Shown here: in pieces, positions 2,935 through 20,421 of the stretch
Layout: every line of letters starts with the position of its first letter
How positions within the stretch are numbered: the first letter of the stretch is position 1
NCBI RefSeq assembly: GCF_001984195.1
Contig: NZ_MTQN01000010.1
Span: 372,001 to 436,000 of the forward strand
Direction of reading: 5' to 3'
Origin: Kribbella sp. ALI-6-A
GTDB lineage: Bacteria; Actinomycetota; Actinomycetes; Propionibacteriales; Kribbellaceae
DNA length: 64,000 nucleotides
Position numbers and translations under genes: made by a program
The notes under the pieces: model-generated
Databases searched by the model: none
Told to the model about the DNA's origin: nothing
Seen by the model: the letters and a program-made list of their open reading frames with translations, nothing else

Positions 2935-4608
2935 TCAGATCCAGGACTTGAACCACATGCGGTTGAGCCAGTCCGGGTGCGGCAGCACCTTGTCGGTCAG
3001 GATCGGCCAGATGTAGGCGAAGTTGAGCACGACCAGGACGACGTAGGCGCCGACGACCGCGCTGCCGATCAGGCGGCGCGGGGTGGCGGCCTGGAAGGCG
3101 GTTCGGGCCGGACCGAGGATCTTGCCGAGCACGAGCGAGACCGCCATCACCGTGAACGGGATCATCGTCACGGCGTAGAAGAAGAAGATCGGCCGGCTGT
3201 CGAAGAAGAACCAGGGCACCCAGCAGGTCAGGTAGCCCACGATCGGGACGCCGAAGCGCCAGTCGCGCTGGGCGATCCACAGCACCAGCGAGGCCAGCAG
3301 CGCGAGCGCGCCGCCCCACCACAGCAACGGCGTACCGACCGCGGAGATCACCGACAGGCAGTTGGTGCCCTGCGGCGCCTCGCAGCCGTTGGTGCCGGGC
3401 TTGATGTCGTTGACCGCGTCGAAGCCGATCGGGCGGGCGATGATCGGCCAGCCGGCCGGGTGCGACGAGTACGGGTGGGTGGCGTTCTTGATGTAGTCGC
3501 CGGTGTGGAAGGCGAGCACTTCCTGGTGGTAGTGGATCAGCGAGCGGAAGTCGTCGGGCACGACCTTCATCACGCCGTGTGCCGGGTTCTTCGAGGCGTA
3601 GTCGTGGTCGTAGGCGTTGTCGTGCAGCAGCCAGCCGGTCCAGGTCGCGGTGTAGGTGACCAGGGCGACCAGCACGATGCTGAGGAACGCCGGGATCCCG
3701 TCGACCACCACCGAACGCCAGAACGGACGCCGTACGCCGATCGCCCGGCGAGCGCCCAGATCCCAGGCGAAGGCCAGCAGGCCGAAGCCGGCGATCACCC
3801 AGACCGCCGACCACTTGGTGCCGAGCGCGAGACCGAAGCAGACGCCGGCCGCGATCCGCCACGGCCGGACCAGCAGCAGCCGGCCGACTGCGCGCCGGGT
3901 GCCCGGGCCGGTGCCGTCCTCGAGGGACTCGGCGTGCCGGCGGCGCGTCCAGTCCCGGTCGGCGACCAGGCAGGACACAGCCGCGACCAGCCAGAACGCC
4001 AGGAAGATGTCGAGCAGGGCGACCCGCGACATCACGAAGTGCAGGCCGTCGACGGCGAGCAGCAGTCCGGCGATGCCGCCGATCAGCGTCGAGCGGGTCA
4101 TCCGGCGGACCGTGCGGATCACCAGCAGCACGGTCAGCGTGCCGAACAGGGCCGGCATGAACCGCCAGCCGAACGAGTTCATCCCGAACAGCTGCTCACC
4201 GGCCGCGATCATCCACTTGCCGACCTCGGGGTGCACGGTCAGGCTCGGGGTGTCCTTGAAGACGTCCAGGTTGCCCGCCAGGATCTGCTTGTCGGCGATG
4301 CCCTCGGGCTTGTCGATGAACTGCCGCGCGTAGCCGAACTTGAGCAGCGAGAACGCGTCCTTGGCGTAGTACGTCTCGTCGAAGACGAACTTCACCGGGT
4401 TGCCCAGGTTCCAGAACCGCAGGATCGCCGCGAACGCCGTGATCGCCAGCGTCGCGATCCAGCCACCGTCGAAGTCCCGCGGCATCGGCGGGTACAGCCG
4501 CTCCTTGACCGGCGGCAGCCGCCGCCCGAACGCGTCCCGTCCGAGCGTCTCCAGCGCCGGTGCGGAACCCGCGCCCTGGTCATCGATCACGGCAGTCACG
4601 CCCGCCAT
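2935..4608 (-). CDS. pmt: Dolichyl/polyprenyl-phosphate-mannose protein mannosyltransferase
   Basis: About 557 residues, polytopic, GT39/GT-C fold. It transfers mannose from polyprenyl-phosphate-mannose to Ser/Thr of exported proteins at the outer face of the membrane. The first loop after TM1 has the conserved FVFDETYYAKDAFSLL segment with the catalytic-type Asp-Glu. VHPEVGKW, a SRVALLDIFLAFW helix and LALGTKWSA also match the family. It is divergent from rsmI, as in many actinobacteria. ATG 4608 gives MAGVTAVIDD; GTG 4599 is an alternative favoured by a TACGAT -10 box (4607-4612) that overlaps the ATG and would make a leaderless transcript from 4599. Confidence 0.93.
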   Translation of the reverse strand: MAGVTAVIDDQGAGSAPALETLGRDAFGRRLPPVKERLYPPMPRDFDGGWIATLAITAFAAILRFWNLGNPVKFVFDETYYAKDAFSLLKFGYARQFIDKPEGIADKQILAGNLDVFKDTPSLTVHPEVGKWMIAAGEQLFGMNSFGWRFMPALFGTLTVLLVIRTVRRMTRSTLIGGIAGLLLAVDGLHFVMSRVALLDIFLAFWLVAAVSCLVADRDWTRRRHAESLEDGTGPGTRRAVGRLLLVRPWRIAAGVCFGLALGTKWSAVWVIAGFGLLAFAWDLGARRAIGVRRPFWRSVVVDGIPAFLSIVLVALVTYTATWTGWLLHDNAYDHDYASKNPAHGVMKVVPDDFRSLIHYHQEVLAFHTGDYIKNATHPYSSHPAGWPIIARPIGFDAVNDIKPGTNGCEAPQGTNCLSVISAVGTPLLWWGGALALLASLVLWIAQRDWRFGVPIVGYLTCWVPWFFFDSRPIFFFYAVTMIPFTVMAVSLVLGKILGPARTAFQAATPRRLIGSAVVGAYVVLVVLNFAYIWPILTDKVLPHPDWLNRMWFKSWI

Positions 4609-4672
4609 CGTACGGAGCCCCCGGTCACACCGTCTCCCGACACCGCCGGGGCGGGCTGCGATGATGGCCCGC

Positions 4673-5515
4673 GTGACTGGGCGACTGATCTTGGCGGGGA
4701 CTCCGATCGGGGATCTGGGGGACGCCACGCCGCGGTTGGCGCGGGTGCTCACCGAGGCCGACGTGGTGGCGGCGGAGGACACCCGGCGGTTGCGGCGGCT
4801 GACGTCGGAGCTGGGGATCGTCGTCGGTGGGCGGGTGACGAGTTTTTTCGAGGGCAACGAGCGGGAGCGGACGCCTGAGCTGGTGGCGGCGATGGCGGAG
4901 GGGCAGACCGTCGTGGTGGTGACCGACGCGGGGATGCCGAGCGTGTCGGATCCCGGGTACCGGCTGGTGGCGGCGGCGATCGAGGCGGGGGTCGTGGTGA
5001 CGGCCGTGCCGGGGCCGTCGGCGGTGCTGACGGCGCTGGCGCTGAGCGGGTTGCCGGTGGACCGGTTCACGTTCGAGGGGTTTCTGCCCCGGAAGCCGGG
5101 GGAGCGGCTGAAGCAGTTGCAGGAGCTGGCCGGCGAGCGGCGGACGATGGTGTTCTTCGAGGCGCCGCACCGGCTGGCCGCGTCGCTCGGCGCAATGGCC
5201 GAGGCGTTCGGGGCGGATCGGCGGACGGCGGTGTGCCGGGAGCTGACCAAGACCTACGAAGAGGTGAAGCGGGGACCGGTCGGAGAGCTGGCCGAGTGGG
5301 CTGCCGACGGGGTTCGCGGAGAGATCACGGTGGTGGTCTCGGGAGTCGACCCGTCCGCCCGGCAGCTGGGGCCGGCGGAGCTCGCCGCCGAGGTGGCGGC
5401 CGACGAGGAGGCGGGGACCCCGCGCAAGCAGGCGATCTCCGACGTGGCCAAGCGGTACGGCGTACCGAAGCGGACGGTGTACGACGCCGTACTGGCTGCT
5501 CGCGAACCCCGGTAA
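4673..5515 (+). CDS. rsmI: 16S rRNA (cytidine(1402)-2'-O)-methyltransferase
   Basis: RsmI uses SAM to 2'-O-methylate C1402 in the decoding centre of 16S rRNA. The SAM-binding tetrapyrrole-methylase-like fold shows in GTPIGDLGDATPRL, EDTRRLRRL, DAGMPSVSDPGYRLV, VPGPSAVLTALALSGLP and FFEAPHRL. At 280 residues it has the normal length, with a C-terminal HTH-like tail (GTPRKQAISDVAKRYG). GTG 4673 (VTGRLILAGTP) matches the usual N-terminus of the family and lies 7 nt after GATGAT; in-frame ATGs at 4661 and 4664 are alternatives. It precedes metG closely. Confidence 0.95.
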   Translation: MTGRLILAGTPIGDLGDATPRLARVLTEADVVAAEDTRRLRRLTSELGIVVGGRVTSFFEGNERERTPELVAAMAEGQTVVVVTDAGMPSVSDPGYRLVAAAIEAGVVVTAVPGPSAVLTALALSGLPVDRFTFEGFLPRKPGERLKQLQELAGERRTMVFFEAPHRLAASLGAMAEAFGADRRTAVCRELTKTYEEVKRGPVGELAEWAADGVRGEITVVVSGVDPSARQLGPAELAAEVAADEEAGTPRKQAISDVAKRYGVPKRTVYDAVLAAREPR

Positions 5516-5547
5516 AAGCACCTGGTCAGGCCCACTACGCTTGAGGT

Positions 5548-7119
5548 ATGTCCGGCGAGAAGGCTTACTACGTCACCACTCCGATCTACTACGTCACGGC
5601 CGCGCCGCACATCGGCAGCGCCTACACGACCGTGGCCGGGGACGTCCTGACCCGCTGGCACGCCCAGCGCGGCGAGCGCAAGTGGTACCTGACCGGTACC
5701 GACGAGCACGGCGAGAAGGTGCTGCGCAGCGCCCAGGCGCAGGGCATGTCGCCGCAGGAGTGGACCGACAAGCTGGTCGAGGAGGCGTGGAAGCCGGCCT
5801 GGGTGGACGTCGACGTCGACTACGACGACTTCATCCGGACCACCGAGCCGCGGCACACCGAGCGGGTCCAGGAGTTCGTCCAGGCGCTGTACGACCAGGG
5901 CGACGTCTACAAGGGCGAGTACGAGGGCCTGTACTGCGTCGGCTGCGAGGAGTTCAAGCTGCCGGCGGACATCCGCACCGACGAGGACGGCACGCAGCGG
6001 TGCATGATCCACGGCACCGAGCTGGAGTCGGTCTCGGAGACCAACTACTTCTTCCGGCTCTCGGCGTACGCCGACAAGCTGCTGGCCCTCTACGAGTCGC
6101 AGCCGGACTTCGTCGCGCCGGCCAGCGCGCGCAACGAGGTCGTCTCGTTCGTCAAGCAGGGGCTGCAGGACCTGTCGATCACCCGCTCGACCTTCGACTG
6201 GGGCATCCCGGTGCCCTGGGACTCCGACCATGTCCTCTACGTCTGGGTCGACGCACTGCTCAATTACGCGACCGCCGCGGGCTACGGCGCGGACCCGGAG
6301 CGGTTCGCCAGCCTCTGGCCGGCGGACGTGCACCTGGTGGGCAAGGACATCCTCCGCTTCCACGCGGTGATCTGGCCGGCGATGCTGATCGCCGCCGGGG
6401 TCCCGGTCCCGAAGCAGGTCTTCGCGCACGGCTGGCTGCTGGTCGGCGGCGAGAAGATGAGCAAGTCGAAGCTGACCGCGATCGCGCCGAAGGAGATCAC
6501 CGACCACTTCGGCTCCGACGCGTTCCGGTACTACTTCCTGCGCACGATCCAGTTCGGCTCGGACGGCTCGTTCTCCTGGGAGCACCTGAGCGCGGTCTAC
6601 ACCTCGGAGCTGGCCAACGGCCTGGGCAACCTGGCGTCCCGGATCGCGGCGATGGTCGGCAAGTACTTCGACGGCGTACTGCCGGAGCCGACCGACCACG
6701 GACCGGCCGAGCAGGCGCTGGCCGACAAGCTCGCCGAGGCGGTCGCCACGGCTGACAAGGCGATGGACGCGCTCGCGTTCCACGACGCGCTGGCCGCGAT
6801 CAACGACCTGGTCGGCGCCGTGAACGGCTACGTCTCCGAGCAGGAGCCGTGGAAGGTCGCGAAGGACGAGGCTCAGCGCGAGCGGCTGGCGACCATTCTC
6901 TACACCGCCGCCGAGGTCCTGCGCGGCGTCGCCGTCCTGCACAACCCGACGATGCCGAAGACCGCCGCGAAGCTGTGGACGTTGCTCGGCGCCGAGGCCA
7001 AGCTCGGCCCGCTCGCCGACCAGCGGATCCAGTCGGCCGGCGCCTGGGGCCAGCTCCCGGCCGGCTCGACGCTGACCAAGGGCGACGCGCTCTTCCCGCG
7101 CCTGACCGAAGAGGCCTGA
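5548..7119 (+). CDS. metG: Methionyl-tRNA synthetase, KMSKS-type with a single zinc knuckle
   Basis: Class I synthetase charging tRNA-Met. The signature is PHIGSAYT near residue 21 (HIGH motif with Ser as last residue), TGTDEHG, and GEKMSKSK with KMSKS at 303-307. The CP insert has one metal knuckle, CVGCEEF followed about 20 residues later by CMIH. The C-terminal anticodon-binding helix bundle contains VSEQEPWKVAK. There is no tRNA-binding EMAP domain. -10 box TACGCT (5536-5541) lies 6 nt before the ATG, so the mRNA is probably leaderless. This is the metG in the rsmI context conserved in actinobacteria; a second, different MetRS lies at 11888. Confidence 0.96.
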   Translation: MSGEKAYYVTTPIYYVTAAPHIGSAYTTVAGDVLTRWHAQRGERKWYLTGTDEHGEKVLRSAQAQGMSPQEWTDKLVEEAWKPAWVDVDVDYDDFIRTTEPRHTERVQEFVQALYDQGDVYKGEYEGLYCVGCEEFKLPADIRTDEDGTQRCMIHGTELESVSETNYFFRLSAYADKLLALYESQPDFVAPASARNEVVSFVKQGLQDLSITRSTFDWGIPVPWDSDHVLYVWVDALLNYATAAGYGADPERFASLWPADVHLVGKDILRFHAVIWPAMLIAAGVPVPKQVFAHGWLLVGGEKMSKSKLTAIAPKEITDHFGSDAFRYYFLRTIQFGSDGSFSWEHLSAVYTSELANGLGNLASRIAAMVGKYFDGVLPEPTDHGPAEQALADKLAEAVATADKAMDALAFHDALAAINDLVGAVNGYVSEQEPWKVAKDEAQRERLATILYTAAEVLRGVAVLHNPTMPKTAAKLWTLLGAEAKLGPLADQRIQSAGAWGQLPAGSTLTKGDALFPRLTEEA

Positions 7120-7123
7120 GCCG

Positions 7124-8437
7124 CTACGCCGAAGCCGTCGCCAGATACAGGGCGGCGGCTTCGGTGCGGCTGGTGACGGCCAGCTTGGTCAGGATGTTGG
7201 CGACGTGGTACTTCACCGTCGACTCGGTGATGTGCAGGGTGTCGGCGATGACCCGGTTGCGCTGGCCCTGGGCGAGCAGCGCGAGGACTTCCAGTTCGCG
7301 ATGGCCGAGGGTGGCCAGGGGTTCGGCGGTGAGGACCTTGCCGGCGGCGGACAGCGTGGTGGTCAGGGCACGGGCGGTCTTGGCGACGTCGGACAGGGCG
7401 ACCGGGAGCATGATGCGCAGCGTCAGGCCCCAGCCGGGTACGGCGTCGACGTCGAGGCGGCCGCCCTGGGCGCGGAGGCGTTCGGCGATCCGGCCGAGGT
7501 CCAGGCGGTCGTCGAGCACGCCGGGGCCGTCGTCGCGCACGGTCGCCTGCAGGCCGGTCGGGTTGAGCCGCCAGCCGACGCGGATCCGCCGTACGCCGTC
7601 CTGACCGAGGATCGCCAGCACCGCGGCGCGGACCGCCACCCGGGCAGCGTGGGCGACGTCCGACGGGATCAGGCGGTCGTTGCTGGGGGCATCCAGTTCG
7701 AGGTCGACGGGAAGGTGCCGCAGCAGGGTCTGCAGCGAGTCGGCCAGTCGCTGGAACGCCCGTCCGGCCGGTTCCTCGCCGGCGTCGGCGCGGTCGCGCT
7801 GGGAGTCGGTGCGCAAATCGGCCAAGGCGTTGAGGGCGAGCTCGACGGCCGTCGTACGGGCCGCGGCGTCGTCGATCCGGTTGTTGCGCAGTACGCCGAG
7901 CAGCGCGGCCAGGGTCGCCGTGTGGGCGTCGGTCAGCTCCGCGGCGACCACGTCACGCGCCATCGCGACCGCGCGGGACTGCGCCAGCACGCTCGGCTCG
8001 ATCTCGAGGGTGAGCCGGTTGAGGTGCGCGGTGACCACGTCCCACAGGGTCTGGACGAGCGGGAGGGTCTGCTCGGGGATCCGGGTGCCGGGGTCGAGTA
8101 CGAACGCCAGTACGGAGCCGCGGGGCGCGTGGTCGCTCGCGATGGCGAGCACAGTCTCCTCGACGCCGCCGATCTCGGCCTCGCCCTGCCACGGCCGTCC
8201 CGCGGAGACCGAGCCGAGGAACGGCGCGAGCTCGGCGCCGGTGATCACGGCGGTGAGCTTCGGATCGCCGGTCGCGCTCAGCGGTGAACCGGCGCACTGC
8301 GGTGACAGGTGGGCGGCCGCGCGGTGCGGGACGACGGTGGCCAGGGTCTCCGACAGCGCTTCGATCACCTGGGGCGGCTCGACCTGGACCAGGCGGGCCG
8401 CGGCGGTCAGAACGGTCACGGCCTCGGAGGACTCCAT
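7124..8437 (-). CDS. LuxR-type regulator fused to a histidine-kinase-like ATPase domain
   Basis: 437 residues. The N-terminal ~150 residues resemble a GAF-type sensor region. Residues ~160-230 form helices like a HisKA_3 dimerisation domain, but the usual ELHD phospho-acceptor motif is absent (VAAELTDAHTATLAALL instead). An HATPase_c-like part follows (ATVRDDGPGVLDDR, RLRAQGGRLDVDAVPGWGLTLRI). The end is a clear LuxR HTH (LGHRELEVLALLAQGQRNRVIADTLHITESTVKYHV). This puts sensor and output in one polypeptide without a receiver domain. It is convergent with metG, with 4 nt between them, and divergent from the quinone oxidoreductase at 8589, a candidate target. Confidence 0.8.
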   Translation of the reverse strand: MESSEAVTVLTAAARLVQVEPPQVIEALSETLATVVPHRAAAHLSPQCAGSPLSATGDPKLTAVITGAELAPFLGSVSAGRPWQGEAEIGGVEETVLAIASDHAPRGSVLAFVLDPGTRIPEQTLPLVQTLWDVVTAHLNRLTLEIEPSVLAQSRAVAMARDVVAAELTDAHTATLAALLGVLRNNRIDDAAARTTAVELALNALADLRTDSQRDRADAGEEPAGRAFQRLADSLQTLLRHLPVDLELDAPSNDRLIPSDVAHAARVAVRAAVLAILGQDGVRRIRVGWRLNPTGLQATVRDDGPGVLDDRLDLGRIAERLRAQGGRLDVDAVPGWGLTLRIMLPVALSDVAKTARALTTTLSAAGKVLTAEPLATLGHRELEVLALLAQGQRNRVIADTLHITESTVKYHVANILTKLAVTSRTEAAALYLATASA

Positions 8438-8558
8438 GTCACCAGGCTACGTGGGTTGATCCATCCACCCACCCGTTCTTCCGGACGGCGGACAGCTGGC
8501 CGAAAGGCCAGTCGGAAACCACGGCGGCGGCTCCACGCTGGAGGTCGAAGAGGATTGA

Positions 8559-8570
8559 TTGAGAACTCAA
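8559..8570. promoter_or_regulatory. Palindromic operator candidate upstream of the quinone oxidoreductase
   Basis: TTGAG-AA-CTCAA is a perfect 5-bp inverted repeat around 2 nt, 18 nt before the ATG at 8589 and within the 151-bp divergent region shared with the LuxR/ATPase gene. It is a plausible binding site for a redox or MarR/HxlR-type regulator; the regulator is not known. Confidence 0.35.
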
Positions 8571-8588
8571 CCACTAAGGACGGTTCTG

Positions 8589-9494
8589 ATGGAAGCGATC
8601 GTGTTCGAGCAGTTCGGTGGCCCCGAGGTGCTGCGCAGCCGCGAGATCGACGCGCCGCACGCGGGTCCGGGCCAGGTCCGGATCAAGGTCCTGGCGGCGG
8701 GGGTGAACCCGATGGACTACAAGATCCGCCGCGGGTGGTTCGAGGCGATGATGCCGACCACGTTCCCGGCGGTTCCCGGTCTGGAGGTCGCGGGTGTGGT
8801 GGACGAGGCCGGCGCGGGTGCGGAGTTCGCCATCGGTGACGAGGTCGTCGGGTGGGCGGCCACGGGCGGCTACGCGCAGCACGCGCTGCTCGGCAACGCC
8901 GTACGGAAGCCGGCGGGGGTGTCGTGGGAGCAGGCGGTCGCCGTACCGGTGGCCGGCGAGACCTCGCAGCGGGTGCTGGACGCGCTCGGCGTGAAGTCCG
9001 GCGAGACGCTGCTGCTGCACGGTGCGGCGGGTGCGGTCGGAGCGGTCGCGGTGCAGCTGGCGGTTGCGGCGGGCGTCACGGTGATCGGTACGGCGTCCGA
9101 GGCGAACCACGAGTACCTGCGGTCGCTGGGTGCCACGCCGATCGCGTACGGCGAGGGCCTGGTCGAGCGGGTGCGCGCGGTGGCGCCGGTCATCGACGCG
9201 GTCTTCGACGCCGCGGGCCAGGGCGGGCTGAAGGAGTCGATCGAGCTGCGGGGTGGGACCGAACGGATCATCACGATCGCCGACATGGGCGCGGGGGAGC
9301 TGGGCGTCGAGGTGTCGGTCGGTGGGACCGAGCCTGAGGTGGTGAAGCGCTGGCTTGGCAAGCAGCTGCAGCTCGCTGCCGACGGCAAGCTGACCGTCCG
9401 GGTCGCCGAGACGTTCCCGCTGGCGGAGGCCGCCAAGGCGCAGGAGATCTCGGAGTCGGGCCACGCCAAGGGCAAGCTCGTCCTTGTTCCGTAA
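8589..9494 (+). CDS. NADP-dependent quinone oxidoreductase (MDR superfamily, zinc-free)
   Basis: 301 residues. It has a GroES-like N-terminal domain (PGQVRIKVLAAGVNPMDYKIR, GLEVAGVVDEAG) and a Rossmann nucleotide-binding domain (LLLHGAAGAVGAVAVQLA), as in the quinone reductase/zeta-crystallin branch. The zinc-ligand cysteines of alcohol dehydrogenases are missing. It probably reduces quinones or alpha,beta-unsaturated carbonyls with NADPH. ATG 8589 is preceded by AAGGA. It stands alone, divergent from the LuxR-type regulator and followed by a strong hairpin. Confidence 0.88.
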   Translation: MEAIVFEQFGGPEVLRSREIDAPHAGPGQVRIKVLAAGVNPMDYKIRRGWFEAMMPTTFPAVPGLEVAGVVDEAGAGAEFAIGDEVVGWAATGGYAQHALLGNAVRKPAGVSWEQAVAVPVAGETSQRVLDALGVKSGETLLLHGAAGAVGAVAVQLAVAAGVTVIGTASEANHEYLRSLGATPIAYGEGLVERVRAVAPVIDAVFDAAGQGGLKESIELRGGTERIITIADMGAGELGVEVSVGGTEPEVVKRWLGKQLQLAADGKLTVRVAETFPLAEAAKAQEISESGHAKGKLVLVP

Positions 9495-9506
9495 GCGCAC
9501 CCACCG

Positions 9507-9537
9507 CCCGGGCCGCGTTCTTCGATCGCGGCCCGGG
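9507..9537. terminator. Bidirectional hairpin terminator
   Basis: An 11-bp perfect G/C stem (CCCGGGCCGCG / CGCGGCCCGGG) with a 9-nt loop sits between the convergent oxidoreductase (ends 9494) and the flavoprotein gene (ends 9608). There is no long T tract, which is usual for actinobacterial terminators. Confidence 0.7.
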
Positions 9538-9607
9538 GGGGATCCGGAGCGGAGTCGCTGCTGCGGTCACCGTGCGCGCGGCGCAGGATCTCCGACGCCC
9601 TCGCCGA

Positions 9608-10783
9608 TCAGGCCGGCACCTTCGCAGCGCGGCGGCTCACGACCCGCCGGCGGCGGGTCGGCATCCCGAACGTCGGGTTGGCGACGCCCCAGGCCGCGCT
9701 CTTGCAGATGAGCTCCTTGTAGACCGCGGCCTTGCGGCCCCGCAGCGAGTAGTTCACCGTCTGGTCGTCCGCGGTCACGTACTGGATCAGCCCGTGCTTG
9801 CGGCCCAGGCTGATGCACTGGTTGAAGTACCGCAGCGGCATGTGCGGGGCCTTCGCCCCGGTCAGCCGCGCGACGACCGCATCGGCGGCCTGACAGGCGG
9901 TCGGTATACCGGAGGCGCAGGACATCCGCAGGGGCTTCCCGGTGTTGCCCATCGCGTACGCCGCGTCGCCGATCGCGTAGACGTCCGGGTGCGAGACCGA
10001 CGCCATCAGGTCGTCCACGACGATCTGGCCGGTCGCGGTGGTTTCCAGCGACGTCGCGGCCGCGATCGGGTGGACCGCGAACCCGGCCGTCCAGACCGTC
10101 GTCGCCGCCGGGATCGCCTTGCCCGTTGTGGTGACGACCGTGCCGGGCTCGACCCGAGCGATCTCGGCGTGCTCGTGGACGGTGATGCCGAGCCTCCCGA
10201 AGACCTCGCGCAGGTGGGCCTGGGCCTTCGGCGACACCCAGTCGCCCAGACCGCCGGTGCTCACCAGCGCCACGTCGAGCTCCGGCCGGGCCTCGGCGAT
10301 CTCGGTCACCGCCTCGATTCCGGTCAGCCCGCCGCCCACGACCGTGACCGTCTGCCCGGCCTCCATCCGGGCCAGGCGCTCCCGCAGTTTCAGCGCCCCC
10401 GGCCGGCTCGCGATCTCGTAGGCGTGCTCGGCGACACCCGGTACGCCGTGGTCGTTCCAGCGGCTGCCGAGCGCGTAGACCAACGTGTCGTAGGTCAGCT
10501 CCTCGGAGCCGTCGGCGAGGGCGACGGTCTTGCGATCGACGTCGACACCGGCCACCCGCGCGATGCGCAGCTCGACGCCGGTGCCCGCGAACATCTCGTC
10601 CAGCGGGCGCGGCGTGAGGTCCTGGCCGACGGCCAGCTGGTGCATCCGGACCCGCTCGACGAAGTCGGGTTCGGCGTTCACGAGGGTGATCTGGACGTCG
10701 TCACGGTGCAGCTGCCGAGCGAGGCGGCCGGCAGCGGTGGCGCCGGTGTAGCCGGCGCCGAGGACGACGATGTGGTGCTTCAT
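9608..10783 (-). CDS. NAD(P)/FAD-dependent oxidoreductase (type II NADH dehydrogenase-like)
   Basis: 391 residues with two dinucleotide folds: VVLGAGYTGATAAGRLA at the N-terminus for FAD and VTVVGGGLTGIEAVTEIAE near the middle for NAD(P)H. A late FAD motif is VYAIGDAAYAMG. The layout fits the NDH-2/pyridine nucleotide-disulfide oxidoreductase family, but no C-terminal membrane helix is evident. ATG 10783 follows AGGAG. The gene lies 97 nt downstream of an ECF41 sigma factor gene on the same strand and has a matching promoter-like element (10816-10843), so it is the likely sigma target. Confidence 0.88.
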   Translation of the reverse strand: MKHHIVVLGAGYTGATAAGRLARQLHRDDVQITLVNAEPDFVERVRMHQLAVGQDLTPRPLDEMFAGTGVELRIARVAGVDVDRKTVALADGSEELTYDTLVYALGSRWNDHGVPGVAEHAYEIASRPGALKLRERLARMEAGQTVTVVGGGLTGIEAVTEIAEARPELDVALVSTGGLGDWVSPKAQAHLREVFGRLGITVHEHAEIARVEPGTVVTTTGKAIPAATTVWTAGFAVHPIAAATSLETTATGQIVVDDLMASVSHPDVYAIGDAAYAMGNTGKPLRMSCASGIPTACQAADAVVARLTGAKAPHMPLRYFNQCISLGRKHGLIQYVTADDQTVNYSLRGRKAAVYKELICKSAAWGVANPTFGMPTRRRRVVSRRAAKVPA

Positions 10784-10815
10784 GTCCGGCTCCTGTCTGT
10801 GAGGTTGTGCCCCTT

Positions 10816-10843
10816 GAACCGGGCAGCCTCCGGATTCCTGACA
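10816..10843 (-). promoter_or_regulatory. Putative ECF41 sigma-factor promoter for the flavoprotein gene
   Basis: On the minus strand TGTCAG (10843-10838) is followed after 16 nt by CGGTTC (10821-10816). ECF41 promoters are known to have a TGTCA-type -35 and a CGT/CGG-type -10 at this spacing. The -10 ends 32 nt before the ATG at 10783, leaving room for a short leader with the AGGAG ribosome binding site. Assigned from the pattern and gene linkage only. Confidence 0.55.
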
Positions 10844-10880
10844 GGTTCCGGACGTGAAGCAGGTCACACCATGGCCGTGC

Positions 10881-11825
10881 TCACCAGCCCGCCACCAGCG
10901 GTTCGCCGTGATCGGCCGCGTTCCACCGGGCGGTCGCCCGCTCGAGCTTGTCGGGGTTGACCGCGCTGCGGACCGCCGTGACGCCCTCGGCGGTGACCTC
11001 GAGCACCATCACTCCGACGACCCGGCCGTCGACCACGGCCACGACCGCCGGCTCGCCGTTGGCGACGTCGGCGTACACGTCGGGGCGGCCGCCGACCATC
11101 GCACGCTTGTGGTCGGCGGGCTTGAACAGGCCGCGCAGGAACTTGGCGACCGCCAGAGCACCGGTGAACGGGCTGGCCTTGGCCGGGATCTTGCCGCCGC
11201 CGTCGCCGACCGCGATCGCGTCACCGGTCAGCAGCTTCACCAGCGGCTCGGTCCGCCCGCTGGTGGCGGCGGCGAGGAACTCCTCGACGATGCGGCGGGC
11301 GGCCGCCTCGTCGACCGCCGCCCGCGTCCTGCCGTCGGCGACGTGCTGCTTGGCCCGGTGGAAGATCTGCTGGCTGGCCGCCTCGGTGATGTCGAGGATC
11401 TCGGCGATCTCGCGGTGCGGGTAGTCGAACGCCTGGCGCAGGACGTAGACCGCCCGCTCGTTCGGCGACAGCCGCTCCATCAGCGTGAGCACGGCCATCG
11501 AGACCGACTCGCGCTGTTCGACGGTCTCGACCGGTCCGAGCAGCGGGTCGCCGGACAGCAGCGGCTCGGGCAGCCACTGGCCGACGTAGGTCTCGCGGCG
11601 GGCACGAGCGGAGGTCAGCTGGTTCAGGCACAGGTTGGTGAGCACCTTGGTCAGCCAGGCCTCGGGGACCTCGATTCCGTCGCGGTCGGCGGACTGCCAG
11701 CGCAGGAACGTCTCCTGGACGGCGTCCTCCGCCTCGCCGGCCGAGCCGAGCAGGCGGTAGGCGATCGCCCCGAGCCGTGGCCGGGCGGCTTCGAACAGGT
11801 CGACGTCGCTGACAGTCAAGGACAT
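10881..11825 (-). CDS. sigJ: ECF41-family RNA polymerase sigma factor with SnoaL-like C-terminal domain
   Basis: 314 residues. Sigma region 2 ([26 protein letters not shown]) and region 4 ([42 protein letters not shown]) are followed by a ~110-residue SnoaL_2-like domain. The ECF41 hallmarks are present: WLPEP in the linker between regions 2 and 4, DGGGK in the C-terminal domain, and NPDKL near the end. In this family the fused domain replaces an anti-sigma factor and modulates activity. It is usually linked to an oxidoreductase, carboxymuconolactone decarboxylase or epimerase gene, here the flavoprotein downstream. TACCGT lies 6 nt before the ATG, giving a leaderless pattern. Confidence 0.93.
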
Positions 11826-11887
11826 GGACCAACGGTAGCCCGCGTAATCCGGCTGCATGCCGAGAACTGCTCTTCTACAGTCACGGC

Positions 11888-13660
11888 ATGACTCACATCC
11901 TGGCCGCGGTGGCCTGGCCCTATGCCAACGGGCCTCGGCACATCGGGCACGTCTCCGGTTTCGGTGTTCCTTCGGACGTGTTCAGCCGGTACCAGCGGAT
12001 GATGGGTCACGACGTGCTGATGGTCTCGGGCACCGACGAGCACGGTACGCCGATCCTGGTGCAGGCCGAGCGCGAAGGCGTCAGCCCCCGCGAGCTCGCC
12101 GACCGGTACAACCGGGTGATTGTCGAGGACCTGCAGGGCCTCGGCCTGTCGTACGACCTGTTCACCCGGACCACCACCCGCAACCACTACGCCGTCGCCC
12201 AGGAACTGTTCAGAACCGTTCATCGCAACGGTTATCTCGTGCCGCGCACCGCGATGGGCGCGATCTCCCCGACCACCGGTCGCGCCCTGCCCGACCGCTA
12301 CATCGAGGGCACCTGCCCGATCTGCGGGTACGACGCCGCGCGCGGAGACCAGTGCGACAACTGCGGCAACCAGCTCGATCCGGTCGACCTGCGTAACCCG
12401 CGCAGCCGGATCAACGGCGAGACCCCGAAGTTCGTCGAGACCGAGCACTTCTTCCTCGACCTGCCGGCGCTGGCCGACGCGCTCGGCTCCTGGTTGCAAA
12501 CCCGCGCCGAGTGGCGCCCGAACGTGCTGAAGTTCGCCACCAACCTGCTCGACGACGTCCGCCCGCGGGCGATGACCCGCGACATCGACTGGGGCATCCC
12601 GGTCCCGCTGCCGGGCTGGGAGGACAACCCGGCCAAGCGGCTCTACGTCTGGTTCGACGCCGTCATCGGCTACCTGTCGGCCAGCGTCGAGTGGGCCCGC
12701 CGCTCCGGCGACGACGACGCCTGGCGCGCCTGGTGGTGCGACCCCGACGCCCGGTCGTACTACTTCATGGGCAAGGACAACATCACCTTCCACGCGCAGA
12801 TCTGGCCCGCCGAGCTGCTCGCGTACAACGGCCGCGGCGCGCGTGGCGGCAGCCCCGGCCGGTACGGCGTACTGAATCTGCCGACCGAGGTGGTCAGCAG
12901 CGAGTTCCTCACCATGGAGGGCCGCAAGTTCTCCTCGTCGCGGTCGGTGGTGATCTACGTCCGCGACGTGCTCGAGCGGTACGGCGCCGACGCGCTGCGC
13001 TACTTCATCGCGGCGGCCGGCCCGGAGGCGCACGACACCGACTTCACCTGGGCCGAGTTCGTCCGTCGCAACAACGACGAGCTGGTCGGCACCTGGGGCA
13101 ACCTGGTGAACCGGACGGCCTCGATGATCGCGAAGAACTTCGGCGCGATCCCGGAAGCCGGCGAGCTGACCACCGCCGACCACGACCTGCTCGCTCGCAG
13201 CCGGGCGGCGTACGGCGTCGTCGGGGAGCATCTCGAGCACCAGCGGCTCCGGCAGGGCATCGGTGCCGCGATGCGGCTCGCCACGGACGCGAACCAGTAC
13301 CTGTCGCAGCAGGCGCCGTGGAAGGAGTCCGACCTCGAGCGCAAGGGCACGATCCTGCACGTCGCCGCGCAGGTGGTCACGGACACCAACCGGCTGCTGG
13401 CGCCGTTCCTGCCGCACGCGGCCCAGCAGGTGCACGAGACGCTCGGCGGGACCGGCGCGATCACCGATCGCCCGGAGATCCGTGAGGTTGCCGATCTGGA
13501 CGGCGGCCCGGGCTACCCGGTGATCACCGGCGATTACGGCCGGGCGGCGTCGTGGGCGCCGCAGGCCGTCGTACCGGGGACTGTGGTGGCGGCGCCGCGG
13601 CCGGTGTTCGCGAAGCTGGCTCCGTCGGTGGTCGACGAGGAGCTGGCCCGGCTGGAATGA
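11888..13660 (+). CDS. metG: Second methionyl-tRNA synthetase, KFSSS-type with two zinc knuckles
   Basis: 590 residues. Class I signature is [15 protein letters not shown] (complete HIGH) and [10 protein letters not shown]. The CP insert carries two metal knuckles, CPIC (143-146) and CDNC (156-159). [15 protein letters not shown] and [16 protein letters not shown] are MetRS motifs. The KMSKS loop reads KFSSS (347-351), as in eukaryotic-like/MetRS1-type enzymes. It differs strongly from the MetRS at 5548, so it is a separate lineage rather than a recent duplication. TACAGT lies 6 nt before the ATG (leaderless pattern). It is divergent from the ECF41 sigma gene. A back-up or inhibitor-insensitive role is an inference. 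Confidence 0.95.
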
Positions 13661-13723
13661 CGCCTTTGTCCAAGACCGTGACGGGCGACCGGCTTATGGT
13701 CGAGGAGAAGGGAGTTGAGGACC

Positions 13724-14152
13724 ATGGCCGGATACGTGGCCACCGCACGAGTCGAGATCGAGGCGTCGCCCGAACGGGTCTGGCAGGTGCTGCTGGACCC
13801 GGTCGCGACCAAGGAGTTCATGTTCGGGTCCGAGGTGGAGACCGACTGGCAGGCCGGGAGCCCGATCACCTGGACCGGCGAGTACGAGGGCAAGGCCTAC
13901 CAGGACAAGGGCAAGGTGCTGGCGGTCGAGCCGGGCCGGCGGCTGCAGGTGACGCACTACAGCCCGATGAGCGGGCAACCCGACGTACCGGAGAACTACC
14001 ACACGCTGACCTACGAGCTGAGCGGCGGGAACGGGAAGACCCAGCTGTCGCTGAGCCAGGACAACAACGCGTCCGAGGAGGAGGCCGAGCACTCGCGCGG
14101 GATGTGGGAGATGCTCGTGCAGGGCGTGAAGAAGGTTGCCGAGTCAGGCTGA
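13724..14152 (+). CDS. SRPBCC (AHSA1-like) ligand-binding protein
   Basis: 142 residues with the START/Bet v1-like pattern: an N-terminal strand (ATARVEIEASPERVWQVL), the GSPITWTGEYEGKAYQDKGKVLAVEPGRRL core and a long C-terminal helix ending VQGVKKVAESG. Proteins of this fold bind hydrophobic ligands; no specific function can be given. The ATG is chosen because GGAGTTGAGG precedes it. A GTG 9 nt upstream is possible. It stands alone between metG and the membrane protein pair. Confidence 0.75.
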   Translation: MAGYVATARVEIEASPERVWQVLLDPVATKEFMFGSEVETDWQAGSPITWTGEYEGKAYQDKGKVLAVEPGRRLQVTHYSPMSGQPDVPENYHTLTYELSGGNGKTQLSLSQDNNASEEEAEHSRGMWEMLVQGVKKVAESG

Positions 14153-14222
14153 GTCAGTGCAGGACCCAGGGTTCGTTAAGCTGCGACGACTTGTTGTCTG
14201 GTGGGAGTAGCAGAGACCTCTG

Positions 14223-16466
14223 ATGTCCGTGCGTGTGCTTCGGCCCGCCTTGTGGATCGCCCTGCCCGTCGTGACGGTCCTGACGATGGCGGCGGTCGGG
14301 GACCCGGTCACGGAGACCATCAGGTACCTGATCACCTGGCTGCTGACGGTGCTGCTGCCCGGCGTACTGATCTGGCGGGTGCTGGCCGGTGGGCGGTCGG
14401 TGCCGCAGGACCTCGGGTTCGGCGCCGTGATCGGCATCTGCTGGCAGCTGAGCGTCTGGGCGGTGTGCACCGGCCTGGGAGTGCCGGGTCTGCAGTGGGT
14501 CCTGGCGCTCGGGTTCTACGTGGTCTTCTTCGCAGTTCCTGGTCTGCGGCGGCGAGTGACCTGGCAGCCCGGGCCGAGCTGGTGGCAGCCGGCGATGGCA
14601 GTGCTGCTGCTGATCGCCGTGGTGCGGACAGTGGCCGGGCTGCTCCGGGTCTGGCCGCTGCCGCCGATCGCCTTCGACCGGCACCAGGACTTCTGGTACC
14701 AGCTCGGCCTGATCCAGGCCCTCAAGCACGACATCACTCCGCCCGACCTGTCGGTGCTGGGCGAGCCGTTGATCTACCACTGGTTCGCCAACGCCTCGAT
14801 GGCCGGGCAGTCCGCGATGGCCAGTGTCGAGCCGTCGCACGTGCTCATGCACCAGTGGCAGATCACCTTCGTGATCAGTCTGGTCCTGGCCGGCTGGGCC
14901 GCGGGCGAGGCGCTGACCGGCAAGACGTGGGTCGGTGCCGTGGCCGGCCTGCTGACCGGGGCACTGCCGGGCACGCTGCAGCTCGCTGCCAAACCCATCG
15001 TCGAGGCGTCGCCGGCCCAGGTCGTGCAAGGCCCGACCGGTGCGCTCGCTGTACTGGTAATGCTCGGTCTGGTCGGCCCGACCGTGCTGATCCTGCGCAA
15101 GCAGGCCACAGGCGGCACCTGGCTGGCGATGGCCCTGATGATCGCGCTGGCGACCGGCACCAAGCCGACCGTGCTGCCGATCATGCTGGCGGGCTCGGCG
15201 ATCGTCGGCCTGTACGCCTGGATCAGCGAGCGGGTCCTGCCCTGGCGGATCGTCGCACTCGGTGCGATGGCCGGTGCGTTCTTCCTGGCGGCGACCTTCG
15301 CCCTGACCGGCAGCACGGGTGGCAGCCGGATCCAGATCCTGGCCGCGCTCCGGGTGCAGCCCTTCTACGCGTCCGTCTCGGGTGACCGTTCCTACCCGGC
15401 GACCGGCGGCTGGGTGCTCCCGTCGATCGCCACCGGTGAGCCCCGGCTGCTGCTGTTCGCCGCGAGCCTGCTCGCCTACTACCTGCTGATCAACTCGGCC
15501 CGCCTGCTCTCCCTGCTCGGTACGACGACCAGCCCGGCGCGCCGCGATCCGGCGTACTGGTGGGTGGCGGGCTGTGTCGCAGCGGGGACCGGCATCACGC
15601 TGGTGTTCTCGCACACGGGCTACTCGGAGTACCACTTCCTGCGCACCGTCACAGCGATCGGTGTGGTCGGCACGGTCGCGGTGGCGGCCACACTGGTCGA
15701 CGAAACGACGCGGTGGCGACCGGTCCTGGTCGCCGGGGCCGCGGGCTTGGTGACAGCTCTGCTGATCCGGCTGCTCTGGTTCCACGTTCCCGACGTACCG
15801 ACGACGGTCGGGCGGGCGATCGTGGCGCTGGTCGTGCCGTTCCAGGTGCTCGCCGTGGTCGGGCTGATCGTGGTGGTGCTGACCAGACGACGTAGCCGGT
15901 CCCTGATTCTCCTGCAGGTCATCGCACTGGTCGTCGCGGCCGGCCTGCCGAACCAGCTGTCGGTCATGTCCGGCAACGTCTACCGCTTGGCCACCGGGCA
16001 GCCGGTGGTCGCTGATCAGAACGACCGGGTCTACCTGACCGAGAACGAGCAGCAGGCGATGATCTGGCTCGGCGAGAACGCCGCACCCGGCGACGTGGCG
16101 GTCAGCAACGTGTTCTGCATGCCGCCGCGCTTCCGCCCGGGCTGTCCGGACGACGCCTTCTGGACCTCCGGGCTGAGCGGTGTCCAGCAGTACCTGAGCG
16201 GCTGGGCCTACGCCCCGAAGAACCTCCAGGCGACCCAGAACAAGACCAGCTTCCTCACCCAGCCGTCACCGTGGCCGGACCGCCTCCAGCAGAGCCTGGA
16301 CGCCGTACAACGGCCGACGCCGGCCCTGCTGACCAAGCTGAAGCGAGAGATCGGCGTCGACTGGATCATCGCCGACCTCCGGGCCGGCCCGGTCTCGCCC
16401 GCTCTCGACCGCCTGGCCGAGCCGTCCTACGCGAACGCGGACGTCCGGATCTACCGCTTGCGCTGA
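14223..16466 (+). CDS. Large polytopic membrane protein, GT-C glycosyltransferase-like, copy 1
   Basis: 747 residues with roughly 14 hydrophobic segments, then a C-terminal soluble domain of about 160 residues. After the early helices there is a conserved loop FDRHQDFWYQLGLIQALKH and GEPLIYHWFAN, followed by FALTGSTGGSRIQ and FSHTGYSEYHFLRT. An Asp in an extracytoplasmic loop after the first helices is what GT-C transferases use, so a lipid-linked sugar transferase acting on envelope polymers is plausible but unproven. Its paralogue follows directly. I do not recognise the family by name. Confidence 0.6.
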   Translation: MSVRVLRPALWIALPVVTVLTMAAVGDPVTETIRYLITWLLTVLLPGVLIWRVLAGGRSVPQDLGFGAVIGICWQLSVWAVCTGLGVPGLQWVLALGFYVVFFAVPGLRRRVTWQPGPSWWQPAMAVLLLIAVVRTVAGLLRVWPLPPIAFDRHQDFWYQLGLIQALKHDITPPDLSVLGEPLIYHWFANASMAGQSAMASVEPSHVLMHQWQITFVISLVLAGWAAGEALTGKTWVGAVAGLLTGALPGTLQLAAKPIVEASPAQVVQGPTGALAVLVMLGLVGPTVLILRKQATGGTWLAMALMIALATGTKPTVLPIMLAGSAIVGLYAWISERVLPWRIVALGAMAGAFFLAATFALTGSTGGSRIQILAALRVQPFYASVSGDRSYPATGGWVLPSIATGEPRLLLFAASLLAYYLLINSARLLSLLGTTTSPARRDPAYWWVAGCVAAGTGITLVFSHTGYSEYHFLRTVTAIGVVGTVAVAATLVDETTRWRPVLVAGAAGLVTALLIRLLWFHVPDVPTTVGRAIVALVVPFQVLAVVGLIVVVLTRRRSRSLILLQVIALVVAAGLPNQLSVMSGNVYRLATGQPVVADQNDRVYLTENEQQAMIWLGENAAPGDVAVSNVFCMPPRFRPGCPDDAFWTSGLSGVQQYLSGWAYAPKNLQATQNKTSFLTQPSPWPDRLQQSLDAVQRPTPALLTKLKREIGVDWIIADLRAGPVSPALDRLAEPSYANADVRIYRLR

Positions 16467-16550
16467 CGTCGCCAGCGGCAACCAAAGCGGACTTTCATCA
16501 CGTCTTGGCTACGTGAGCAAGATTTTCGCGCTGTCAGGCATCTACTCAGT

Positions 16551-18809
16551 ATGACGATCTCCGCAGTGGTGGGCCGTGGGGCCCAGCTCGCGCTGTGGGC
16601 CGTCGTTCCGCTCACCGTGCTCGTGCTGCTGGACGACTTGGGGCATCCGGCGGCTGCGACCGCCAGGTACCTGGCCGCGTGGGCAGTGCTCGTGCTGCTG
16701 CCGGGCACTCTGCTCTGGCGGACGCTGACCGGCGGCCGCTCGTGGGCCCAGGACCTCGGCTTCGGCTCGGTGCTCGGCCTGGCGTGGGCGCTCGGCGTCT
16801 GGGCGGTCTTCACCGGAGTCGGCTACCCACGCCAGCAGTGGATGGCCACGGTCGGCCTGGTGCTCGCGCTCCTTCCACTGGTACGCCGGAGGTCCCCTGA
16901 GCGGATCAGGTGGCTGCCGGTGATGGTGCTCGGCCTGGTGCTGGCTGCCGTCCGGGTGTTCGTCGAGCTGCTCCGGTTGGTGCCGCTGCCGCCGGCTCAG
17001 TTAGGCAGGCACCAGGACGTGTGGTTCCAGCTCGGACTCGTCCAGGTGCTCGAGAAGCACGTCGTACCACCTGATCCGTCGGCTGCCGGTGAGCCGCTGA
17101 TCTACCACTGGTTCACCAATGCGCTGATGGCCGCGCACGGGCAGGTGTCCGGCGTCGGCGCACCGGAGGTCCTGCTGCACCAGTGGCCGATGACGATGGC
17201 GCTGACCTTCGTCCTGGCCGGCTGGGCCGCGGGGGAGTTGCTCAGCGGCATCCGCTGGGCGGGCCCGGTCGCCGGTCTGGTGTCGGGTGTGTTCGCCGGC
17301 GGGCTGCGGCTGACCGACGAGCCCGGCGTCGACATGGCCGGTGCCTTGAGCATCCAAGGGCCGACCGGGACGCTCGCGGCGGTGATCATGCTCGGGCTGG
17401 TCGGTCCGACGGTGCTGATCCTTCGTAGGCAGGCGGGAAAAGGCACCTGGATCGCACTGGTGATGCTGCTCGTGCTGGCGTGCGGAACGAAGCCGACACT
17501 GCTGCCGATCATGGCGGCGGGCTGTGCCGTCGCAGGGGTTGCCTGCTGGCTGCTGGAGCGGCGATTCCCCTTGCGGGTGGTCGTTCTGGGGCTGCTCTGC
17601 GGTGGGCTCTTCCTGGCCGCGACGTCCACGCTGACCGGTAGCACGGGCGGCAGCCGGATCCAGTTCCTCGCCGCGCTGCGAGTGCTCCCGTACTACGCAG
17701 TCGTGACCGGCGACAGGTCCTTCCCGACGTACGGCGGCGTCGTGGTGCCCGGCATCGCGAACGACGGGCTCTGGTACTTCGCGGCTGTCCTGGTCGCCTG
17801 GTACTGCGTGCTGAGCCTGCCGAGGCTGCTCGCGGTGGTCGGGATCACGCTCCACCCGACGCGGCGCGATCCGGCGTACTGGTGGGCGGCGGCCTGTGTC
17901 GCCGCGGGTGCGGCGATCACGCTGGTGTTCTCGCACACGGGTTACTCGGAGTACCACTTCCTGCGGACCGTCATCCACCTCGGACCGGTTGTGATGGTCG
18001 CCGTCGTCGCCCGGGTGCTCGGCGACGAGATCCGGCACCGCAAGGTCTGGATCCCGCTGGCGGTCAGCCTTTCCGGCGGCGTCGGTACGGCGGTGGTGCT
18101 CAACCAGGTGTGGCCTGCCGTGGTGGTGACCAACCAGAGGGAAGCAGCGCTCGATCTGCTCGGGCCGGCCGCGGCGCTGGTCGTCGCTGCCGGTGTCGGC
18201 GTACTGCTGATCCGCCGCGTCGTCTCACCGCGGCACTGGCCTCGGGCACTGGTCGTCTACGCGACCTGCTTCCTTGCAGCGTCCAGTCTGCCGGCGCAGA
18301 CGACGTACCTGGCAGTGGCGTCGTACGGGGCTGTGATCGACCGGCCGGTCACCACTGGGCAGGGCACTCGGATCTACCTGACCCGGGCAGAACAGGAGGC
18401 GATGCTGTGGTTGCACGGACACGCCGGGCCGGAGGACGTCGCCGTGAGCAACGTCTTCTGCATGCCGACGCGTTACCGGCCTGGCTGCCCCAATGACGCG
18501 TACTGGGTGTCCGGACTGAGTGGTGTCCAGCAGTACCTCGGCGGCTGGGCCTACGCGCCGCAGAACCTGGCTGCGACCAACCACACCAGGAGCTACCTGT
18601 CGCTGCCGCCGCCCTGGCCGGACCGGTTGGCGGACAGCCTGGCCGCCGTCGAGCGTCCGGCACCTGAGCTGCTGGCCAGGCTGCGGGACCAGCACAGCGT
18701 CGACTGGATCATCGCCGACCTGCGCGCCGGCCCGGTTTCACCCGCCCTCGACACGCTGGCCCAGCGGGCCTACGCGAACTCCGACGTCCGGATCTACCGC
18801 CTGCGGTAA
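16551..18809 (+). CDS. Large polytopic membrane protein, GT-C glycosyltransferase-like, copy 2
   Basis: 752 residues, a clear paralogue of the gene at 14223 with the same layout and landmarks: LGRHQDVWFQLGLVQVLEKH, GEPLIYHWFTN, STLTGSTGGSRIQ, FSHTGYSEYHFLRTV and the C-terminal AVSNVFCMPTRYRPGCPND, GLSGVQQYLGGWAYAP, VDWIIADLRAGPVSPALD. The soluble end is more conserved between the copies than the membrane part, suggesting that it carries the shared function. The 84-nt gap between the copies contains no terminator. The C-terminal domain reads like an extracytoplasmic sugar- or acceptor-binding domain (inference). Confidence 0.6.
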   Translation: MTISAVVGRGAQLALWAVVPLTVLVLLDDLGHPAAATARYLAAWAVLVLLPGTLLWRTLTGGRSWAQDLGFGSVLGLAWALGVWAVFTGVGYPRQQWMATVGLVLALLPLVRRRSPERIRWLPVMVLGLVLAAVRVFVELLRLVPLPPAQLGRHQDVWFQLGLVQVLEKHVVPPDPSAAGEPLIYHWFTNALMAAHGQVSGVGAPEVLLHQWPMTMALTFVLAGWAAGELLSGIRWAGPVAGLVSGVFAGGLRLTDEPGVDMAGALSIQGPTGTLAAVIMLGLVGPTVLILRRQAGKGTWIALVMLLVLACGTKPTLLPIMAAGCAVAGVACWLLERRFPLRVVVLGLLCGGLFLAATSTLTGSTGGSRIQFLAALRVLPYYAVVTGDRSFPTYGGVVVPGIANDGLWYFAAVLVAWYCVLSLPRLLAVVGITLHPTRRDPAYWWAAACVAAGAAITLVFSHTGYSEYHFLRTVIHLGPVVMVAVVARVLGDEIRHRKVWIPLAVSLSGGVGTAVVLNQVWPAVVVTNQREAALDLLGPAAALVVAAGVGVLLIRRVVSPRHWPRALVVYATCFLAASSLPAQTTYLAVASYGAVIDRPVTTGQGTRIYLTRAEQEAMLWLHGHAGPEDVAVSNVFCMPTRYRPGCPNDAYWVSGLSGVQQYLGGWAYAPQNLAATNHTRSYLSLPPPWPDRLADSLAAVERPAPELLARLRDQHSVDWIIADLRAGPVSPALDTLAQRAYANSDVRIYRLR

Positions 18810-20351: not shown

Positions 20352-20391
20352 TCGGCCCATTACACCTTTTTCCGCCGCGCCGACGAGTCGA

Positions 20392-20421
20392 TTGGCACTC
20401 TCCGCACTTCTTCGTTACTGT
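20392..20421 (+). promoter_or_regulatory. Candidate promoter of rpfB
   Basis: TTGGCA (20392-20397) and TACTGT (20416-20421) are 18 nt apart and followed by a long leader of about 145 nt before the GTG at 20571. The leader is GC-rich with several inverted repeats. I looked for the c-di-AMP riboswitch core that often precedes rpf genes in this phylum and did not find it. Confidence 0.4.

Follow-up and report, generated by a model that had tools for sequence, protein, structure and literature searches.

Streptococcus pneumoniae and Bacillus anthracis reportedly carry two methionyl-tRNA synthetases (MetRS) in one genome, MetRS1 and MetRS2, with resistance as the reported phenotype. Here we describe a type 1 enzyme (MetRS-A) and a type 2 enzyme (MetRS-B) that stand close together in Kribbella sp. 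ALI-6-A, whose genome is 8.10 Mb in 12 contigs; the window, which is the whole stretch of DNA that was analysed, comprises 64,000 bp of contig NZ_MTQN01000010.1 (G000:C5:372001-436000; Table 1). The likeness to the pairs in S. pneumoniae and B. anthracis is that type 1 and type 2 occur in one genome; resistance is the reported phenotype there and would be conjecture for the Kribbella pair. In homeoalleles of aminoacyl-tRNA synthetases, as set out in the available passages for TyrRS, ThrRS and SerRS, divergent forms alternate between relatives, at times in the same syntenic context, and there is usually one form per species; from a same-context swap of TyrRS it was concluded that both forms had not coexisted there (PMC3191353). 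The Kribbella genes resemble these in their alternation but differ in that both forms coexist in the slot in 13 of 37 genomes, and we consider it probable that they are a homeoallele pair in one slot, with MetRS-A the inherited housekeeping enzyme and MetRS-B a complete, dispensable accessory. The homeoallele paper covers TyrRS, ThrRS, SerRS and PheRS and the word 'methionyl' is absent from its text (PMC3191353), and none of the passages that we found on homeoalleles among aminoacyl-tRNA synthetases concerns MetRS. Adjacency of synthetase forms has a precedent in Haladaptatus paucihalophilus, for which the accessible part of the report describes two divergent forms, LeuRS-A and LeuRS-B', as adjacent genes with the same flanking genes as in relatives (PMC3436685); that case is one archaeal species with LeuRS genes in divergent transcription, whereas here there are many species and MetRS genes on the same strand. 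A literature search pairing Kribbella with methionyl-tRNA synthetase, which had most subscription journals outside its scope, found nothing.

Both open reading frames (ORFs) are free of stops, encode a catalytic and an anticodon-binding domain (PF09334 and Anticodon_3), and lie on the same strand with a gap of 4,768 bp. An earlier sequence-only reading had described them as two intact synthetases of different lineages about 5 kb apart, and we agree on each point. Types were assigned after a published MetRS scheme (the portions available of PMC8165550 and PMC9071491), and a recent duplication of one MetRS is ruled out by the difference in type together with an identity of 32% over 156-523. MetRS-A scores 655.8 with NCBIfam NF008900 (cut-off 598) and is above the cut-off of TIGR00398, and it has the PHIGS, KMSKS and single CxxC...CxxH knuckle (CVGC...CMIH) that had been recognised. 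The knuckle aligns with CVGC...CPIH of chain 2csx, with no insert for a second knuckle in the alignment, which places MetRS-A with the one-knuckle family C of type 1 enzymes, described as having one zinc (PMC8165550). Of the type 1 signature, HIGH and KMSKS, it has the second but not the first, with HIGS in every Kribbella row; its NF008900 score and its position in the tree nevertheless put it in type 1.

MetRS-B scores 462.4 with TIGR00398 (cut-off 336.35) and falls short of its nearest equivalog, NF001100 for E. coli-type MetRS (513.9 vs 587 bits), and on these scores we place it in an actinobacterial type 2 group outside the E. coli equivalog. Its best PDB chains are, in order, 1rqg, which we take to be a Pyrococcus MetRS, the cytoplasmic MetRS 5gl7, and E. 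coli-type chains; its best named matches are three Kribbella records (82–87% identity). HIGH, KFSSS and two CxxC pairs (CPIC-x9-CDNC) are present as previously noted, and KFSSS, GNLVNR and QAPW are kept in all thirteen Kribbella MetRS-B rows; the HIGH pattern was read in 11 of these (two unread), and a KMSKS pattern in 45 of 62 other MetRS-B rows. Type 2 enzymes have a connective peptide (CP) domain with two knuckles, which hold a single zinc ion in family B and two in family A (PMC8165550, in the parts available), and the full-length alignment of MetRS-B to 1rqg and the E. coli chains spans both knuckles. MetRS-B more probably has a single zinc site than two, because the CxxC pairs align with the four distal-knuckle cysteines of the E. 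coli chain and the cysteines of the other knuckle of 1rqg are absent, as they are from the E. coli chain. At the positions that presumably correspond to E. coli residues 257 and 237, MetRS-A has the type 1 Leu at 257 in 36 of 36 Kribbella rows and MetRS-B has Val in 13 of 13, with His or Ile at 237, where the alignment is uncertain.

The closeness of the two genes, which might have been put down to chance, arises because both forms share a single alternating slot, pmt-[MetRS]-tatD-rpf-ksgA-ispE, which holds either MetRS-A or MetRS-B in most sampled Actinomycetes (slots were read from all ORFs, since a gene caller based on G+C content at third codon positions, GC3, failed on low-GC loci). Among relatives with MetRS-A only, it is beside the slot border genes in five of five same-order loci with a close MetRS-A (63–73%) and in all 20 loci fetched from other families, these being picked without streptomycete-like genomes ('streptomycete-like' and 'Nocardioides-like' are guessed group labels). 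At least one border gene (pmt, tatD, rpf, ksgA or ispE) accompanies MetRS-B in 79 of 80 named loci, three of which are Kribbella, and at least two do so in 77; the locus without one is a short contig. Named genera with MetRS-B in the slot include Micromonospora, Actinoplanes, Cellulomonas, Kineosporia and members of the Streptosporangiaceae, and six of six further MetRS-B loci with 68–78% identity are in the slot as well. On a tree of tatD, ksgA and ispE from 72 loci the A or B state changes nine times, and at least five of the changes are forced by well supported branches, including one switch inside the group holding Herbidospora and Sphaerisporangium. This tree and those of MetRS-A and MetRS-B (the latter with 77 of 109 MetRS-B rows) are quick searches with support from the Shimodaira-Hasegawa-like approximate likelihood ratio test (SH-aLRT) only. 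As in the homeoalleles described, the two forms alternate between related genomes, and at 32% identity they are divergent; each is the sole form matched in many genomes of the class.

A second slot of this kind is seen in a streptomycete-like genus (g28), where another type 2 MetRS (37–40% identical to MetRS-B) alternates with a type 1 MetRS among shared neighbour families, one of which is AspRS; of the 12 loci compared, two have no neighbour family in common with the others and a third has just one. In one genome of this genus (G113, locus L227) a type 2 MetRS is encoded directly beside a type 1 MetRS, in a slot other than that of Kribbella, and the type 1 enzyme has a long end branch (0.34, vs 0.04–0.10 in four relatives).

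In a survey of 246 genomes of the class, MetRS-B (nearly full length, at least 66% identity) was found in 71 and a type 1 match (E <= 1e-80) in 150, every matching genome being counted, and both were found together in four. These are the genome of the window, which alone has a close MetRS-A, and G065, G111 and G181, whose type 1 partners are divergent (40% and 43% identical in the first two, E 6.6e-94 in the last); another four genomes have MetRS-B fragments alone. Within Kribbella, MetRS-A is present in all 37 genomes and MetRS-B in 13, always beside MetRS-A, and none of the 37 has MetRS-B alone. Over their full length the Kribbella MetRS-B proteins are 62–78% identical to the MetRS of genomes in which no type 1 match was found, and they form one clade (support 100/100), whose best neighbour is a Propionibacteriales metagenome-assembled genome (MAG) with MetRS-B only (support 77/83). 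Kineosporia, which is among the top named matches outside Kribbella, is rejected as the nearest kin (approximately unbiased test with L033, p 0.0006). In the MetRS-A tree, family f4 of the same order is the sister group of Kribbella (SH-aLRT 95). For the genus itself a tree was built of 36 genomes from MetRS-A, pmt, an MFS protein and a DUF1707 protein (G026, with one marker only, was omitted), and on it the presence of MetRS-B changes five times. Its distribution in the genus is best read as ancestral presence followed by repeated loss, because MetRS-B is one clade in one place and its main split is like that of the genome tree.

Each of the two genes is preceded by a putative -10-like site, and the leaderless-type promoters that the sequence-only reading proposed have support in the sequence, in that TACGCT and TACAGT stand 6 nt before the respective ATGs and sites of this kind are conserved in relatives. 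For MetRS-A, TANNNT lies within 14 nt upstream in all 35 readable Kribbella loci; for MetRS-B, TACAGT is upstream in the window and in 11 of 12 relatives (12 of 13 genomes), and most bases further upstream differ. As background, 51 of 259 GC3-called genes have a TANNNT among the 13 nt just upstream, and 30 of 70 MetRS-B genes of other genera are preceded by one.

The protein divergence of MetRS-B relative to tatD, ksgA and ispE has a median of 1.32 in Kribbella (54 pairs), compared with medians of 0.32–0.70 in ten named genera where MetRS-B is in use (single pairs reach 1.15); by this flank-relative measure Kribbella MetRS-B diverges about twice as fast as it does where it is the sole MetRS. 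The ratios come from 11 of the 13 loci with both forms (G017 and G029 are without flank genes in the fetched stretch) and from pairs with a flank distance of 0.04–0.6. With disjoint pairs the difference is maintained (five Kribbella pairs, 0.83–1.87, vs 23 with a median of 0.57; p 4e-5), and where both were compared between the same two genomes MetRS-B is faster than MetRS-A in all 45 pairs. The corresponding ratio for MetRS-A is 0.87 in genomes with MetRS-B and 0.61 in those without, both values falling inside the span of other families (0.52–0.91), and we note the difference without claiming a speed-up of MetRS-A beside MetRS-B. Synonymous divergence relative to the flanks is 1.09 for Kribbella MetRS-B and 0.49–0.81 elsewhere, and for MetRS-A 0.68 with MetRS-B and 0.49 without it (10 two-form loci for MetRS-B and 7 for MetRS-A, as also for the ratio of nonsynonymous to synonymous divergence, omega). 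Since the omega of Kribbella MetRS-B (0.18) is close to that of MetRS-A (0.15–0.17) and falls within the range of MetRS-B elsewhere (0.14–0.33), purifying selection is intact. GC3 is 0.91 for MetRS-B and 0.96 for MetRS-A. The rates fit a MetRS-B that is working, less constrained and probably less expressed. We do not claim a speed-up of MetRS-A in the Kribbella stem either, since the flank genes, judged by eye, have a comparably long stem there.

Under the homeoallele reading that we prefer, MetRS-A and MetRS-B would be alternative forms of one essential function that occupy one chromosomal slot. MetRS-A would be the inherited housekeeping enzyme that charges both initiator and elongator tRNA-Met, and MetRS-B a complete second MetRS that has been its neighbour from roughly the time of the ancestor shared by the sampled Kribbella; with its own conserved promoter-like site, weaker constraint and probably lower expression, it would have been dispensable and lost several times. 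We infer that both enzymes charge tRNA-Met, with MetRS-B as a low-expressed backup that was present in the ancestor of the genus. There are several observations that weigh against this reading. All eight MetRS-B loci fetched from two groups of the same order, a Nocardioides-like genus and family f2, are outside the slot, as are both of the distant MetRS-B loci of family f21 (45–49%), the five type 1 loci fetched from streptomycete-like genomes and three divergent type 1-like genes (38%) that family f4 carries. The MAG link of Kribbella MetRS-B is weak and leaves a choice between an ancestral pair and an early acquisition, supported branches force just two of the five gains or losses in Kribbella, and a transfer of MetRS-B between Kribbella species is conceivable. 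The contrast in rates is pronounced when tatD or ispE is the reference but weaker with ksgA (0.96 vs 0.62), and omega shows no difference. The pair is a living, genus-wide example, in ordinary soil bacteria, of the state in which both forms are present in a swap slot, a state that is usually only inferred, and it weakens the argument that same-slot replacement means that the forms never coexisted.

It is possible, although we doubt it, that the presence of both forms is instead a passing stage in the replacement of MetRS-A by MetRS-B, or the reverse, with no function of its own. Alternation in the slot across the class would suit this, as would the second, streptomycete-like slot with its one genome carrying both forms adjacent and a long-branched type 1 enzyme. 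However, the two-form state spans the sampled Kribbella with both enzymes under purifying selection, and losses hit MetRS-B and never MetRS-A. The sequence-only reading had looked to inhibitor resistance, for which we see no specific support; that MetRS-B is a resistance enzyme, insensitive to a natural inhibitor of type 1 MetRS, as has been proposed for paired MetRS of certain Gram-positive bacteria, seems to us improbable. Inhibitors of MetRS1 are indeed described, in the passages available, as acting less or not at all on type 2 MetRS, with a Pro tied to the insensitivity (PMC8165550). The residues in Kribbella are mixed: where MetRS-A has the type 1 Leu in every row MetRS-B departs from it, but to Val rather than Pro, and at the less certainly aligned position it has His or Ile and not the Tyr of Gram-negative enzymes. 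Patchy presence within the genus would suit intermittent selection, but MetRS-B has been lost repeatedly, pairwise omega shows no positive selection, no MetRS inhibitor or gene cluster for one came to light, and none is recognisable between MetRS-A and tatD in the window, which is a weak point as two of the proteins there have no Pfam match. Recruitment of MetRS-B away from translation, for example into biosynthesis, we regard as very improbable. It evolves faster in Kribbella than in other genera, and biosynthetic-type MetRS paralogs are present in the same genome (see below), but it keeps the anticodon-binding domain and, in all 13 genomes, GNLVNR and QAPW, it is 62–78% identical over its full length to MetRS from genomes that lack a type 1 match, and no constant partner gene is next to it. 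What the sequence-only reading had missed is that the closeness comes from a shared alternating locus, that MetRS-A is probably the housekeeping enzyme and MetRS-B a faster-evolving, dispensable one, and that PHIGS is itself odd throughout the genus.

The HIGS motif is the most surprising single detail of the locus. The second His of HIGH is Ser in all 39 Kribbella MetRS-A rows (36 genomes; three named loci repeat), and it is His in all 30 other rows. A 26-base degenerate search for PHxGSAYTT (where x is I, L, F, Y and similar by codon, and which type 1 genes deviating elsewhere in the stretch escape) found one of the 246 class genomes, the window's own. HIGS is also fixed in Kribbella genomes without MetRS-B. 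In six genomes (G002, G006, G009, G010, G015 and G016) a search with MetRS-B brings up MetRS-A alone at E <= 1e-10, so the HIGS enzyme must serve all translation there, unless a remote MetRS was missed, and the genus offers a natural test of the need for the second HIGH His in a MetRS serving all protein synthesis. Class I synthetases of other specificities tolerate changes at this position; a literature search on changes at the second HIGH histidine in class I enzymes found nothing. That the presence of MetRS-B allowed the change to HIGS is speculation. A fuller scenario, in which coexistence with MetRS-B relaxed the constraint on MetRS-A in the Kribbella ancestor and gave rise to HIGS, lineages without MetRS-B now run all translation on the altered type 1 enzyme, and species with both split the work by growth condition or inhibitor exposure, strikes us as rather unlikely.

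Table 1. Features of the MetRS slot and its surroundings, in window positions.
Feature	Position	Strand	Remarks
DUF1707 protein	2245-2922		
pmt, protein O-mannosyltransferase	2935..5250	-	slot border gene
rsmI, 16S rRNA methyltransferase	4400..5515	+	upstream of MetRS-A
TACGCT, putative -10-like site of MetRS-A	5536..5541	+	6 nt before ATG
MetRS-A, type 1 methionyl-tRNA synthetase, 523 aa	5548..7119	+	HIGS/KMSKS/CxxC...CxxH; 37/37 genus genomes
Variable insert between MetRS-A and MetRS-B	7124..11858	.	
TACAGT, putative -10-like site of MetRS-B	11876..11881	+	6 nt before ATG
MetRS-B, type 2 methionyl-tRNA synthetase, 590 aa	11888..13660	+	HIGH/KFSSS/CxxC-x9-CxxC; 13/37 genus genomes
AHSA1 protein and two proteins (747 aa, 752 aa)	13715..18809	+	between MetRS-B and tatD
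tatD, rpf, ksgA, ispE	18823..23556	+	other slot border

The insert between the two synthetase genes encodes a LuxR-type regulator, an alcohol dehydrogenase, a pyridine nucleotide-disulphide oxidoreductase and a SigJ-like sigma factor, the last divergent from MetRS-B with 29 bp between both start codons; the insert genes vary among Kribbella relatives. The two MetRS frames are only 4 bp apart in G034 and 2.4–10.8 kb apart in eight other loci measured, and in G014 they are on two contigs that both end in the slot region, with the same neighbours. There is no support for MetRS-B as part of a fixed island or operon, since the AHSA1 gene and a homolog of the 747-aa gene occur without it (in G004, G007, G024, G019, G023, G027 and G036) and it has its own conserved promoter-like site. 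The 747-aa (14223-16466) and 752-aa (16551-18809) proteins have no Pfam match at E 0.001–0.01 and no NCBIfam match at E 0.001. To the left of MetRS-A, the start codon of pmt is probably placed too far upstream, its 5' part overlapping rsmI, and the rsmI match covers residues 98-365, so that its true start is later than 4400. An Rfam scan of window positions 1-32000 at the gathering threshold found no T-box or other known RNA control; no relaxed search was made.

The window's genome has a third MetRS-like ORF (L003) on contig C6, around G000:C6:809241 (L267:9241-13421), which encodes 454 aa with no anticodon domain. It lies between the genes for a cupin and a Lys/Orn N-hydroxylase-domain protein, with an ATP-grasp protein further on, and this neighbourhood is the known triad of N-N bond (hydrazine) biosynthesis, as far as the available passages describe it (PMC2922099, PMC8664883). 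MetRS-A and MetRS-B are of a different kind from this paralog, as both have full anticodon domains, and neither a cupin nor a hydroxylase is among their neighbours. Of 38 genus genomes, 19 have a relative of the third gene (at least 70% identity), which in one case is split into two pieces; the 38th genome (G058) was searched with the METC query only. A further MetRS-like paralog, 53–56% identical to the third gene, lies between ispE and a 460-aa gene in nine genomes where it was mapped (L109, L113, L115, L116, L117, L119, L126, L128 and L281), and a tenth (G019) has it unmapped; genomes with this paralog have up to three MetRS-like genes within ~20 kb. Judged by eye, its 122-aa neighbour in L115 is unlike a cupin. 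In the window the 460-aa gene (24170-25552) is present, but between ispE and that gene there is neither this paralog nor a METC remnant.

Two 95-residue pieces in another genome (G233:C18:9011-9295 and G233:C36:300029-300313) are 77% identical to the start of MetRS-B and are either remnants or small proteins; this genome has a type 1 MetRS. In genus g67, type 1 MetRS matches (66%) at G144:C160:9570-11135 and G214:C5:116929-118494 have one in-frame TGA each. Near the MetRS pair in the window, at 25752-29651, are genes for a ribosomal protection protein of the OtrA/TetM kind, which at 721.8 bits stays under the family cut-off of 900, and then for an ABC-F protein. Further along, the segment at 38001-44000 has a G+C content of 0.63–0.66, compared with ~0.70, and contains a tRNA-Gln gene (43021-43093), and may be an island.

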